A stretch of 64,000 bases of DNA. Source: Capillimicrobium parvum (GTDB lineage: Bacteria > Actinomycetota > Thermoleophilia > Solirubrobacterales > Solirubrobacteraceae). A program made the translations under genes and the position numbers. Shown piece after piece: positions 9,775 to 53,022 of the stretch. Every line of letters begins with the position of its first letter. Within the stretch, counting starts at the first letter, position 1. Under the pieces are notes generated by a model. That model was not told where the DNA came from. It was given only the letters and a program-made list of their open reading frames with translations, and searched no databases. The DNA lies in contig NZ_CP087164.1 of assembly GCF_021172045.1 (NCBI RefSeq), positions 1,240,001 to 1,304,000 on the forward strand. Reading direction: 5' to 3'.

Positions 9775-10544
9775 CAGCAGCCGGTGAACGCGGGCGCGCG
9801 CCGCTCGCTGAACGCGGCGAGGCCCTCGCGCAGGTCGTCGGACGCGAGGACGTCCTCGAGCCGCCGCTCGGCGTCGGCGATCGCCGCGGCCAGCAGGCGC
9901 TCGTCCTGGGCGCGGACCAGGTCGCGGATGGCCCGCACCGCGAGCGGACCGTTGGCGGCGATCCGCTCGGCCAGGCGCACCGCCGCCGGCATCAGCTCGC
10001 CTGCCGGCACGATCTGGTCGACGAGCCCCATGCGCAGCGCCTCGGCCGCGCCGACCGGCTCGCCGGTCAGCAGGAGCAGCAGCGCACCGCCGCGCCCGGC
10101 GATGTGGGGCAGCCGCGACGTCCCGCCGCCGCCGGGGATCAGGCCGAGCCCGACCTCGGGGAACCCGAGCCGGGCGTCGTCGGACGCGATGCGCAGGCTG
10201 GCGCCGAGCGCGAGCTCGAGCCCGCCGCCGAGAGCGTGGCCGTGCAGCGCCGCCACCGAGGGGATCGGCAGGCGCTCGAGCTCGGCGGCCGCCTCGAGGA
10301 CGGCGCGGTTGTGGGCCAGCGTCTCGCTCGGGGACTGGCGCCGCAGGGCGGCGATGTCGCCTCCCGCCGAGAACGAGGCGCCGGCGCCGCTGAGCACGAG
10401 ACACCGGATTTCAGTTTCATGTGCCAAGGCCCGCACGGCCGCGCGCAGGGAGCGGATCGTCTCCGGCTCCAGCGCGTTGCGCCGCTCGGGTCGGGCGATC
10501 TCCACATGGCCGACCCGGCCCGCTGTCCACGACCTCACGCACAT
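9774..10544 (-). CDS. Enoyl-CoA hydratase
   Basis: A 256-aa crotonase with both canonical catalytic glutamates: Glu110 in GGGLEL and Glu130 in GFPEVGLG, and the oxyanion-hole pattern SAGGDI. It should therefore be a true hydratase of 2-enoyl-CoA. ATG 10544 has no Shine-Dalgarno site. The palindromic operator lies 1 base upstream, and the divergent IpdA-like gene starts only 20 bases away, so one operator probably controls both directions. It is the first gene of a two-gene operon with the SDR. Confidence 0.93.
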   Translation of the reverse strand: MCVRSWTAGRVGHVEIARPERRNALEPETIRSLRAAVRALAHETEIRCLVLSGAGASFSAGGDIAALRRQSPSETLAHNRAVLEAAAELERLPIPSVAALHGHALGGGLELALGASLRIASDDARLGFPEVGLGLIPGGGGTSRLPHIAGRGGALLLLLTGEPVGAAEALRMGLVDQIVPAGELMPAAVRLAERIAANGPLAVRAIRDLVRAQDERLLAAAIADAERRLEDVLASDDLREGLAAFSERRAPAFTGC

Positions 10545-10564: not shown

Positions 10565-11470
10565 ATGCCCGTGAACAAGATCACCCACCTCGAGCGGCTC
10601 CCGGAGCTCGTCGGCGACGGCGCGGTCGTCGCCTTCGGCGGGGGCTGGTTCGCCAACCATCCGATGGCGGCGGTCCGGGAGCTCGTCCGGGCTCGGCGGA
10701 CCGACATCCACGGCCTCGCGCTGCTCGGCTCCGTCGACGTCGACCTGATGGTCGGCGCCGGGGTCCTGCGCCACCTCACCTTCTCCATGGTCACGCTCGA
10801 GGCCATGGGCCTCGCCCAGAACTTCCGGCGCGCGGTGCAGGCCGGCGAGCTGCCGATCACCGAGATCCCGGCGCTGTCGCTGCAGGTCGCGCTGGAGGCC
10901 GGCGGGCAGTCCGTGCCGTTCATGCCGGTCCGCGGCCCGATCGGCTCGGACCTCGTCGCGCAGAACCCCGAGGTCTTCGGCACCGCGCGCACGAGCTTCG
11001 GCGACGAGGACGTCATGGTCGTCAAGGCGATCCGGCCCGACGTGGCGATCATCCACGCGCTGCGCTGCGACCGCCTCGGCAACGTCCAGTTCGACGGCAC
11101 CTACTCGCAGGACCCCGAGCTCGCCGCTGCCTCGGACACGGTGATCGTCACCTGCGAGGAGATCGTCGACAGCTCGGAGATCGCGGCGCAGTCGCACCTC
11201 ACGAAGATCCCGGGCTTCCTCGTCGACCACGTCATCGAGGCGCCGTTCGGCGCGCACCCGTGCTCGCACGTGCCGCGCTACGCGCAGGACGCGTGGGAGA
11301 TCCTCGAGTACCAGAAGGCCGCGATGGCCGGGGGCGACGCGTACGCCGCGTACGTCGACCGGATCCGCGGCGAAACGGAGGCGGAGTACCGCGAGCGCGT
11401 GCTCGCCGGCGACCGCGGCCGCGTTCTCGCCGCGCTCGCCGAGGCCGGCCCGACCCTGCAGGAGGCGTGA
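10565..11470 (+). CDS. CoA-transferase alpha subunit, IpdA-like (copy 1)
   Basis: A 301-aa class I CoA-transferase-fold subunit. It has the N-terminal AFGGGWFANHPMAAVRELVR glycine loop, FSMVTLEAMGLAQNFRRAV, and FLVDHVIEAPFGAHPCSHVP near the end. The family includes glutaconate CoA-transferase and IpdA, a ring-opening hydrolase of actinobacterial steroid C/D-ring catabolism. Glu100 in PITEIPAL may match the essential Glu of IpdA (alignment from memory). The beta subunit follows with a TGATG overlap. It starts directly on the palindromic operator. The second copy is at 24635. Which reaction it performs, CoA transfer or C-C hydrolysis, is not settled. Confidence 0.85.
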   Translation: MPVNKITHLERLPELVGDGAVVAFGGGWFANHPMAAVRELVRARRTDIHGLALLGSVDVDLMVGAGVLRHLTFSMVTLEAMGLAQNFRRAVQAGELPITEIPALSLQVALEAGGQSVPFMPVRGPIGSDLVAQNPEVFGTARTSFGDEDVMVVKAIRPDVAIIHALRCDRLGNVQFDGTYSQDPELAAASDTVIVTCEEIVDSSEIAAQSHLTKIPGFLVDHVIEAPFGAHPCSHVPRYAQDAWEILEYQKAAMAGGDAYAAYVDRIRGETEAEYRERVLAGDRGRVLAALAEAGPTLQEA

Positions 11471-51241: not shown

Positions 51242-52387
51242 ATGCAGACGGCGACGGACGTGTACGCGATTCCTCGGGAGTTGTTGGATTTTCGTGACTC
51301 GATCCGGCAGATCGTGGTGGAGCGGATTGCGCCGCGGGCGGCGGAGATCGATGCGTCGGGGGAGTATCCGTGGGATGTGCGGCGGTTGTTGGCCGAGCAG
51401 GATGTGTTGGGGTTGCCGTTTGCCGAGGAGTACGGGGGCACGGGGACGGGGACGTTGATGTTGCAGATGGCGGTCGAGGAGATCGCCAAGGCGTGTGCGT
51501 CGAGCGCGCTGATCCTGATGATCCAGGAGCTGGGGACGCTGCCGATCGCGCTCTATGGCTCCGATGAGCTCAAGGCGCGCGTGCTGCCGAAGTGCGCGTC
51601 GGGGGAGTGGTCGCCGGCGTTTGCGCTGTCGGAGCCCGAGGCGGGGTCCGATCCGGGGGCGATGCGCACGACCGCGGTGCGCGATGGCGACGAGTGGGTC
51701 ATCAACGGCGCCAAGAACTGGATCACCAACTCGGGCATCGCCGACTTCTACGTCGTGTTCGCGGTCACCGATCGTGAGCGCCGGCGGATCACGGCGTTCG
51801 TGGTTGAGCAGGATCGGCCCGGGCTGTCGATCGGCAAGCTCGAGCACAAGCTGGGGATCAAGGGCTCGCCGACCGGCTCACCGGTGTTCGACGATGTGCG
51901 GGTGCCGCACGAGAACGTGATCGGCGAGGTCGGCCGGGGGTTGGGCGTGGCGTTGGGGACGTTGCAGCGCACGCGGTTGGGGGCGGCGGCGCAGGCGGTC
52001 GGGATCGCGCAGGGCGCGACCGACTACGCCAACGCGTACGCGGCCGAGCGGATCGCGTTCGGGGCGCCGATCAACGAGCTGCAGGCGATCCAGTTCAAGC
52101 TGGCCGACATGGAGACCGGGACCGCCGCCGCGCGCGAGCTGCTCTACAAGGCGTGCACGCTGGCCGACCGCGCAGACCCGCAGGCCGCGAAGTACAGCTC
52201 GATGGCCAAGCTGTTCGCGTCCGACAACGCGATGAAGGTCACCGTCGAGGCCGTCCAGGTCCTCGGCGGCTACGGCTACGTGACCGAGTACCCGGTCGAG
52301 CGCATGATGCGCGACGCCAAGATCACCCAGATCTACGAAGGAACCAACGAGATCCAGCGGGTCGTCATCGCCCGCGCCATGCGCTGA
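51242..52387 (+). CDS. Acyl-CoA dehydrogenase (butyryl/short-chain type)
   Basis: A 381-aa acyl-CoA dehydrogenase. The catalytic Glu366 is in IYEGTNEIQR, the standard position, with FALSEPEAGSDPGAM and KNWITNSGIADF in the flavin domain. ATG 51242 was chosen; ATG 51209 would add 11 residues. The first two thirds of the gene use many TTG, GTG and GGG codons and CG-poor thirds, unlike its neighbours; from about 52000 the codons return to the C-ending pattern of the window. This suggests a mosaic or an acquired sequence. It is far from the catabolic island and probably serves general fatty-acid oxidation. Confidence 0.92.
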   Translation: MQTATDVYAIPRELLDFRDSIRQIVVERIAPRAAEIDASGEYPWDVRRLLAEQDVLGLPFAEEYGGTGTGTLMLQMAVEEIAKACASSALILMIQELGTLPIALYGSDELKARVLPKCASGEWSPAFALSEPEAGSDPGAMRTTAVRDGDEWVINGAKNWITNSGIADFYVVFAVTDRERRRITAFVVEQDRPGLSIGKLEHKLGIKGSPTGSPVFDDVRVPHENVIGEVGRGLGVALGTLQRTRLGAAAQAVGIAQGATDYANAYAAERIAFGAPINELQAIQFKLADMETGTAAARELLYKACTLADRADPQAAKYSSMAKLFASDNAMKVTVEAVQVLGGYGYVTEYPVERMMRDAKITQIYEGTNEIQRVVIARAMR

Positions 52388-52398
52388 ACCCGGAGACC

Positions 52399-53022
52399 AT
52401 GCCCAACGGCCGCCGCATCGCCTTCGCCGCTCTCGTCGCCGCCAGCGTCGGACTCGCCGTGGTGGCGCTGGCCCAGGGGATGAGCCCGTCGCTGCCGATC
52501 CGCCTGCTCGAGGCGGCCGGCATCGCGGTCGTGGCGATCGCCGTGCTCGGGGGCGTCGTGACGTTCGTCATGGGGCGCCTGGCCGACTGGCAGAACCCGC
52601 AGTCGGAGGCCGAGTTCGAGCAGGTCGTCCGCCGCTCCGAGCGGCTCGCCCGCGAGGGCCTGGCCGTCGAGCCCGACGAGGTCGACTTCCTCGCCCTCGA
52701 CCCGCTCGACGACGCGGACTTCGAGGAGCTCGTGCGCGACGCCCTCGACGACCTGCCCGACCTGCTGCGCAACGCGCTCGAGCACGTCGCGGTGGTCATC
52801 TCCGACGGCGGCCGGCGCGCCGGCGCCTACGGGCTCTACCACGGCGACGGCGCGCACCGCGACGACTTCCCCGACCGGATCGTCATCTACCGCGACACGC
52901 TGCGCCGCGACTTCGGGCACGACCCCGAGATGCTGCGCGACCAAGTGGTGCGCACCGTGCGCCATGAGCTCGCGCACCACGTCGGCTTCGACGAGATGGG
53001 CGTCCAGGGGCTCGGCCTCTGA
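52399..53022 (+). CDS. Membrane-anchored zincin (PF06262-like metallopeptidase)
   Basis: A 207-aa protein. Two N-terminal transmembrane helices (IAFAALVAASVGLAVVAL and AAGIAVVAIAVLGGVVTFVM) precede a small peptidase domain with an HExxH zinc motif, HELAHH (His189, Glu190, His193), followed by GFDE. The 90-residue PF06262 proteins are usually soluble, so the membrane anchor is a less usual arrangement. ATG 52399 starts 11 bases after the dehydrogenase stop. Confidence 0.88.
   Translation: MPNGRRIAFAALVAASVGLAVVALAQGMSPSLPIRLLEAAGIAVVAIAVLGGVVTFVMGRLADWQNPQSEAEFEQVVRRSERLAREGLAVEPDEVDFLALDPLDDADFEELVRDALDDLPDLLRNALEHVAVVISDGGRRAGAYGLYHGDGAHRDDFPDRIVIYRDTLRRDFGHDPEMLRDQVVRTVRHELAHHVGFDEMGVQGLGL

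Follow-up and report, generated by a model that had tools for sequence, protein, structure and literature searches.

The acyl-CoA dehydrogenase gene (acd) at 51242–52387 of the analyzed window, a stretch of 64,000 nucleotides, changes its codon usage sharply within one intact reading frame, and the same genome carries a second copy that is identical to it through both the aberrantly and the natively spelled part. Ectopic gene conversion of this pair is very probable. Elsewhere in the genome, the same keto-rich codon dialect recurs in other pairs with similar tracts of near identity, and a single reading of all of them, in which identity arises by ectopic gene conversion and is tied to the dialect, is on balance probable.

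Codon shift within an acyl-CoA dehydrogenase gene

The features of the locus, in window positions, are as follows.

51242–52387, + strand: acyl-CoA dehydrogenase gene, copy A; intact ORF with family-level matches, followed by the gene of an HExxH protein
51242–52006, + strand: keto-rich codon dialect (TTG/GTG/GGG/CGG/GCG and GAT/TTT/TAT), strongest at 51242–51421 and weak at 51737–51871
51242–52383, + strand: tract of 1142 bp, 100% identical to copy B (C1:2387054-2388195, minus strand)
52007–52384, + strand: 3′ part in native spelling, the same in copy B up to 52383
52349–52383, + strand: 35-bp tract end, which recurs within a 46-bp tandem array downstream of copy B
52402–53022, + strand: downstream gene for a HELAHH-motif protein, native codons; marker of the conserved copy A locus

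In the 5′ part of acd (249 codons), TTG accounts for 12 of 23 Leu codons, GAT for 10 of 15 Asp, GTG for 14 of 20 Val, GGG for 14 of 25 Gly and CGG for 12 of 19 Arg. The 3′ part (133 codons) uses TTG for 0/7 Leu, GAT for 0/6 Asp and GTG for 1/9 Val; across 275 genes taken as the genome background, Leu is spelled TTG in 3.3% of cases and Asp is spelled GAT in 13%. A cumulative test placed the best change point at 52007, with the deviation matched in 0/5000 synonymous-codon permutations. The codon shift that the first-pass annotation had reported inside this gene is therefore real and extreme, and its descriptions of an intact ORF and of native spelling 3′ of ~52000 were borne out as well. When the codon matrix was trained solely on two genes other than acd, acd scored ~110 for the dialect, compared to a 99th percentile of 26.6 among the 1339 sampled genes, and it is in the top 10 of these genes. 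The change is not one clean step: 51242–51421 is strongest, 51737–51871 near neutral and 51872–52006 strong again, after which the spelling is native. The genes neighboring copy A use native codons.

The encoded protein matched 23 NCBIfam families, all under their equivalog cut-offs, with acryloyl-CoA reductase as the best match (417 bits versus a cut-off of 640). We refer to the product as a putative acyl-CoA dehydrogenase, an assignment at superfamily level. The dialect was not clear in any best match from 29 other relatives, with L009 and L012 mild. As the orthologues of relatives lack the pattern, a conserved orthologue trait, the outcome that would have told against mosaicism, is ruled out.

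A second copy identical over the coding sequence

Searching the genome at the protein level located a second acd copy encoding the same protein (copy B) at C1:2387053-2388195 on the minus strand. Identity between the copies extends from the ATG to 4 bp short of the ORF end in the window, and beyond this tract the flanks are unrelated, nothing aligning except a 46-bp tandem array. Because identity covers the odd 5′ part as well as the natively spelled 3′ part, the point where codon usage changes does not coincide with the point where identity ends: tract and dialect share their start at the ATG, and the dialect stops near codon 255 but the tract only near codon 381. The copies are 100% identical, compared to protein identities of at most 85% to relatives. 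Both settings have counterparts in those relatives, as acd followed by the HExxH-protein gene (copy A type) was found at 11 of 25 relative loci examined and acd beside an acyl-CoA mutase gene (copy-B-like) at 4 of the 25. Two old loci therefore exist, and locus types A and B intermix in trees. The tandem array after copy B (L031:9855-10036; C1:2386907-2387088) comprises 4.0 copies, each unit combining the terminal 35 bp of the shared tract with 11 bp from the flank. That the unit spans the tract edge suggests slippage or template switching there.

In the favored account, ectopic (non-allelic) gene conversion would maintain the identity of the two paralogues, and it would not extend past the coding sequence since the flanks share no homology. 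The first-pass annotation had proposed that a foreign 5′ part was joined to a native 3′ part by recombination. Recombination stands, and its demonstrable partner is the second copy in the same genome, which matches the odd 5′ and the native 3′ part alike; a foreign origin of the 5′ part was not shown. Identical repeats are where assemblies err, and the genome assembly is one contig, so we considered that assembly or polishing could have made different paralogues look identical. Such an artefact is highly improbable, as other pairs keep real differences (UDP-glucose dehydrogenase, 96.8% identity; FtsH, 99.5%) and as it would not generate a codon dialect.

Composition of the dialect

The dialect was characterized over 2955 codons in eight genes. 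At fourfold third positions, C falls from 0.50 to 0.23 and G rises from 0.43 to 0.71; at twofold pyrimidine sites, T rises from 0.095 to 0.50, and at twofold purine sites, A falls from 0.056 to 0.011. The TTG share of Leu increases from 2% to 38%, and Ile ATC is almost unchanged (98% to 95%). These third-position shifts amount to a loss of A and C and a gain of G and T on the coding strand, and in some dialect stretches C occupies only 3–7% of third positions. A short motif as the target was considered and rejected: k-mers were only mildly enriched compared to synonymous shuffles, with no single motif prominent.

Dialect genes across the genome occur in pairs

A codon log-odds score was computed for 1094 genes (1.68 Mb) and then for 1339 predicted genes of at least 120 codons, covering 2.08 of 5.95 Mb (35%) of the genome; gene selection relied on GC frame instead of a trained gene finder. 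With a matrix trained on FtsH and acd, nearly all of the 1339 genes scored below 25 and 16 exceeded 30. To counter circularity, the matrix was retrained on UDP-glucose and alanine dehydrogenase only, and 13 of the 1339 genes then scored above 50: UDP-glucose dehydrogenase (2), alanine dehydrogenase (1), sugar-ABC ATPase (2), FtsH (2), a tandem molybdenum-hydroxylase-type large subunit (2), acyl-CoA dehydrogenase (2), RibBA and a GlcD-type oxidase. Except for acyl-CoA dehydrogenase, these names were read off the sequences and are putative. The molybdopterin pair fell below 30 with the retrained matrix.

Eleven of the 13 strong dialect genes have a near-identical or close partner (87.6–100% DNA identity). 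With a partner defined by an identity of 85% or more across 300 bp or more, dialect (score above 30) was present in 12 of 20 partnered genes versus 4 of 1319 others (Fisher P = 3e-21, a value that treats paired genes as independent and uses the matrix trained on FtsH and acd). Leaving out the four FtsH and acd training genes, the counts were 8 of 16 versus 4 of 1319. Among 66 genes with paralogues less than 85% identical, the score never exceeded 16.1. The association also appears with no codon model: when the 1339 genes were ranked by their GT-richest 300-nt coding window, 10 of the first 12 belonged to pairs, and few coding stretches in the sampled genome are as rich in GT as the 5′ ends of the tracts. 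For UDP-glucose and alanine dehydrogenase, near-identical partners were found as predicted from the dialect.

The correspondence is incomplete in both directions. RibBA (C1:2242306-2243997) and the GlcD-type gene (C1:864779-866407) show the dialect less strongly and, when searched for, yielded no partner in the genome; they are perhaps relics of lost partners, or perhaps evidence against the link between dialect and pairing. Conversely, the dialect is missing from one weak pair, from a pair of ABC permeases and from a cupin pair at 94% identity, as it is from the 97% identical acd copies of another genus (G011). Two 100% identical copies of a putative IS481-type element (C1:987495-988558 and 3707269-3708332) are likewise without it, and a relaxase-like gene at 2562346 scored 32. 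Among 525 genes in relatives' loci, moderate dialect was seen only in the UDP-glucose dehydrogenase of the genus mate (39.9); a further match among these genes scored 31.4 and looks like a false reading frame. The mild to moderate dialect in UDP-glucose dehydrogenase of genus mate G003 comes with no visible second copy.

Tract edges in the other pairs

The acd, FtsH, UDP-glucose dehydrogenase and alanine dehydrogenase pairs lie in different contexts with non-homologous flanks, and in all four the dialect has a sharp 5′ onset at, or at most about eight codons from, the tract edge and fades towards 3′. The alanine dehydrogenase copies (98% DNA identity) are diverged in codons 1–29 (~70–76% DNA identity), which have native spelling, and are 100% identical over codons 30–372, reaching the stop. 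Their dialect begins at codon 30 and is native again by about codon 285–300; codons 16–30 of copy y are slightly less native. Past the stop, a 51-bp stretch is identical in L336 and L337, at ~44 versus 171 nt from the stop. As in acd, identity runs through the native 3′ part, so that tract and dialect are not coextensive. For UDP-glucose dehydrogenase (96.8% identical; 96% protein identity versus at most 85% to relatives), identity starts at codon 16 and the dialect at about codon 24, fading past about codon 360. Identity drops to 0.60–0.93 over an interior patch at codons 105–150, and in the least similar part of this patch copy y is without dialect.

The two FtsH copies share 44–58% DNA identity ahead of the tract and 99.5% over 1251 bp within it. 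The tract begins at codons 154 and 171 and the dialect at codons 151 and 171 of the respective copies; the dialect is confined to the tract, with native flanks on the same mRNA. In both alanine dehydrogenase and FtsH, an identical interior is thus enclosed by homologous sequence that has diverged, a layout that is the mark of gene conversion and not of recent duplication. In the acd pair, the identical stretch is bounded by the coding sequence itself. In the sugar-ABC and molybdopterin-oxidoreductase pairs, identity extends into the next gene, so their flanks are not non-homologous as in the four pairs above. Within the tandem xdh pair, similarity is lower in the 5′ part that carries the dialect, which tells against a tie between dialect and conversion.

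Transcription-linked mutation or selection could in principle produce the dialect alone, if strong transcription depletes C and A from the exposed coding strand and the genes concerned are also those duplicated for dosage. The joint rise of T/C, G/C and G/A on the coding strand and the 5′ to 3′ fading fit this explanation. We nevertheless consider it quite improbable. Dialect and native parts of FtsH share one mRNA, and the restriction of the dialect to the tract cannot be put down to expression level; the expression controls, which were GroEL and two ATP-synthase-type genes only, are native. High expression as the sole cause was rejected on these grounds.

Search for a donor

Import offers another explanation, in which an unsampled relative using G/T-ending codons donated the dialect segments through homologous recombination and the resulting mosaic was then copied to the second locus. 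The sharp 5′ junctions in alanine dehydrogenase and FtsH are what import would produce, and some of the trees lean the same way. The FtsH flanks support a genus clade (99/99) in which the FtsH tract is not included, and a grouping of the tract with G003 alone was rejected (p-AU 0.044). The best DNA match of the tract among 399 class genomes (86%) is in another genus, compared to 84% for genus mates. Separate trees of the two halves of acd, which the first-pass annotation had suggested as a check, gave a split answer: the 3′ part is sister to the genus mate (91/94), and the 5′ part did not group with it, its placement being undecided.

Several results weigh against import. No close donor was found, with best matches of 80% outside the genome's own copies for acd 51242–51990 (146 family genomes) and the above 86% for the FtsH tract, and a close donor genome was rejected on these values. 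Neither a genus clade for the FtsH core (p-AU 0.45) nor a grouping of the acd 5′ part with the genus mate (p-AU 0.29) was rejected; as the AU tests do not reject agreement, half-gene trees were dismissed as proof of foreign origin. The UDP-glucose dehydrogenase tree holds the genus together, weakly (58/78). In 72,556 plasmid records, none covered 80% of the UDP-glucose dehydrogenase query, and the best matches listed were ~68% identical. C at 3–7% of third positions would be an unusual composition for the entire genome of a GC-rich organism, and import leaves the pairing of the imported genes without explanation. We therefore regard import as rather unlikely.

A proposed link between gene conversion and codon rewriting

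Returning to gene conversion, the class would comprise the acyl-CoA, alanine and UDP-glucose dehydrogenases and the FtsH core, together with the tandem molybdenum-hydroxylase and sugar-ABC ATPase pairs; the coding strand of its members would have changed from A/C to G/T at synonymous sites. From the identity of the copies, the tract edges, the dialect and their co-occurrence, we infer that conversion has been recurrent and that the dialect is made or kept up by recombination itself. The tie between dialect and conversion rests on their association and on the shared 5′ edges, and the case for a causal link is evenly poised. Two mechanisms could provide one. GT-rich DNA may be favored by RecA-type pairing, so that exchange re-initiates, or the coding strand may be repeatedly single-stranded (in an R-loop or D-loop) while transcription or recombination proceeds, and lose C and A; each of them is unlikely taken singly. 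More generally, ectopic conversion coupled to codon rewriting in this actinobacterial lineage, with a fixed 5′ edge and fading over ~250–400 codons, is a tentative possibility. If it holds, the rewritten coding DNA would be of the GT-rich type that RecA pairs best, and converted paralogues would be self-reinforcing recombination hot spots, recognizable by codon use alone. Odd codon use inside a gene is routinely taken as horizontal transfer, and here it predicts a twin in the same genome. Were the link causal, bacterial gene-conversion tracts could be recognized from sequence alone by their dialect, and these genes would offer a natural setting for asking whether recombination or strand exposure can reshape codon use.

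Relation to known systems

Concerted evolution of paralogues is the known part of these results; here the pairs additionally share a strand-specific codon dialect. Gene conversion among prokaryotic paralogues leading to long-lasting concerted evolution was described by Wang and Chen 2018 (PMC6053082), and ftsH, in Deinococcales, is among their 26 genes. As in the present pairs, the copies there exceed orthologues in similarity, at synonymous sites too, and occupy different genomic settings. That study concerned conversion over the full gene length, in contrast to tracts with a strand-specific dialect and a sharp 5′ edge, and its main text makes no mention of skew, GC content, nucleotide composition or biased gene conversion and mentions codon usage once. 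The homogenization of tufA and tufB in bacteria (PMC6053082) similarly involves two copies with homogenized coding sequence in different contexts, but tuf is a translation factor gene, whereas the present pairs comprise genes of metabolism and the core of a protease, and their codons are non-native.

A preference of RecA/Rad51 for GT-rich DNA is given in PMC5948810, citing Tracy et al. 1997. It parallels the GT-rich 5′ ends of the tracts but is in vitro biochemistry, and no tie to codon use in paralogue pairs was found in the literature searched. Compositional strand asymmetry with an excess of G and T on one strand, as given in PMC2031905 and PMC3174206, has the same amino-to-keto direction; that asymmetry is chromosome-wide and linked to replication, whereas the dialect affects few tracts and the coding strand only. 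In open-access literature, as represented by titles and the beginnings of abstracts, a codon or strand signature of bacterial gene-conversion tracts was not found.

Other acd loci

In G011, a genome of another genus, two acd copies (L154/L155) share 97% identity in a stretch that hardly exceeds the coding sequence; they are most alike at the 3′ end and without dialect. An acyl-CoA dehydrogenase gene 78% identical and beside a mutase gene was present in L048, labelled as a Bifidobacterium breve MAG, a label that looks wrong. Similar palindromes of the form CCGATA...TATCGG lie upstream of copy B (L031 ~11210–11240) and of icmF (~9780–9815), so that one regulator may perhaps serve both.
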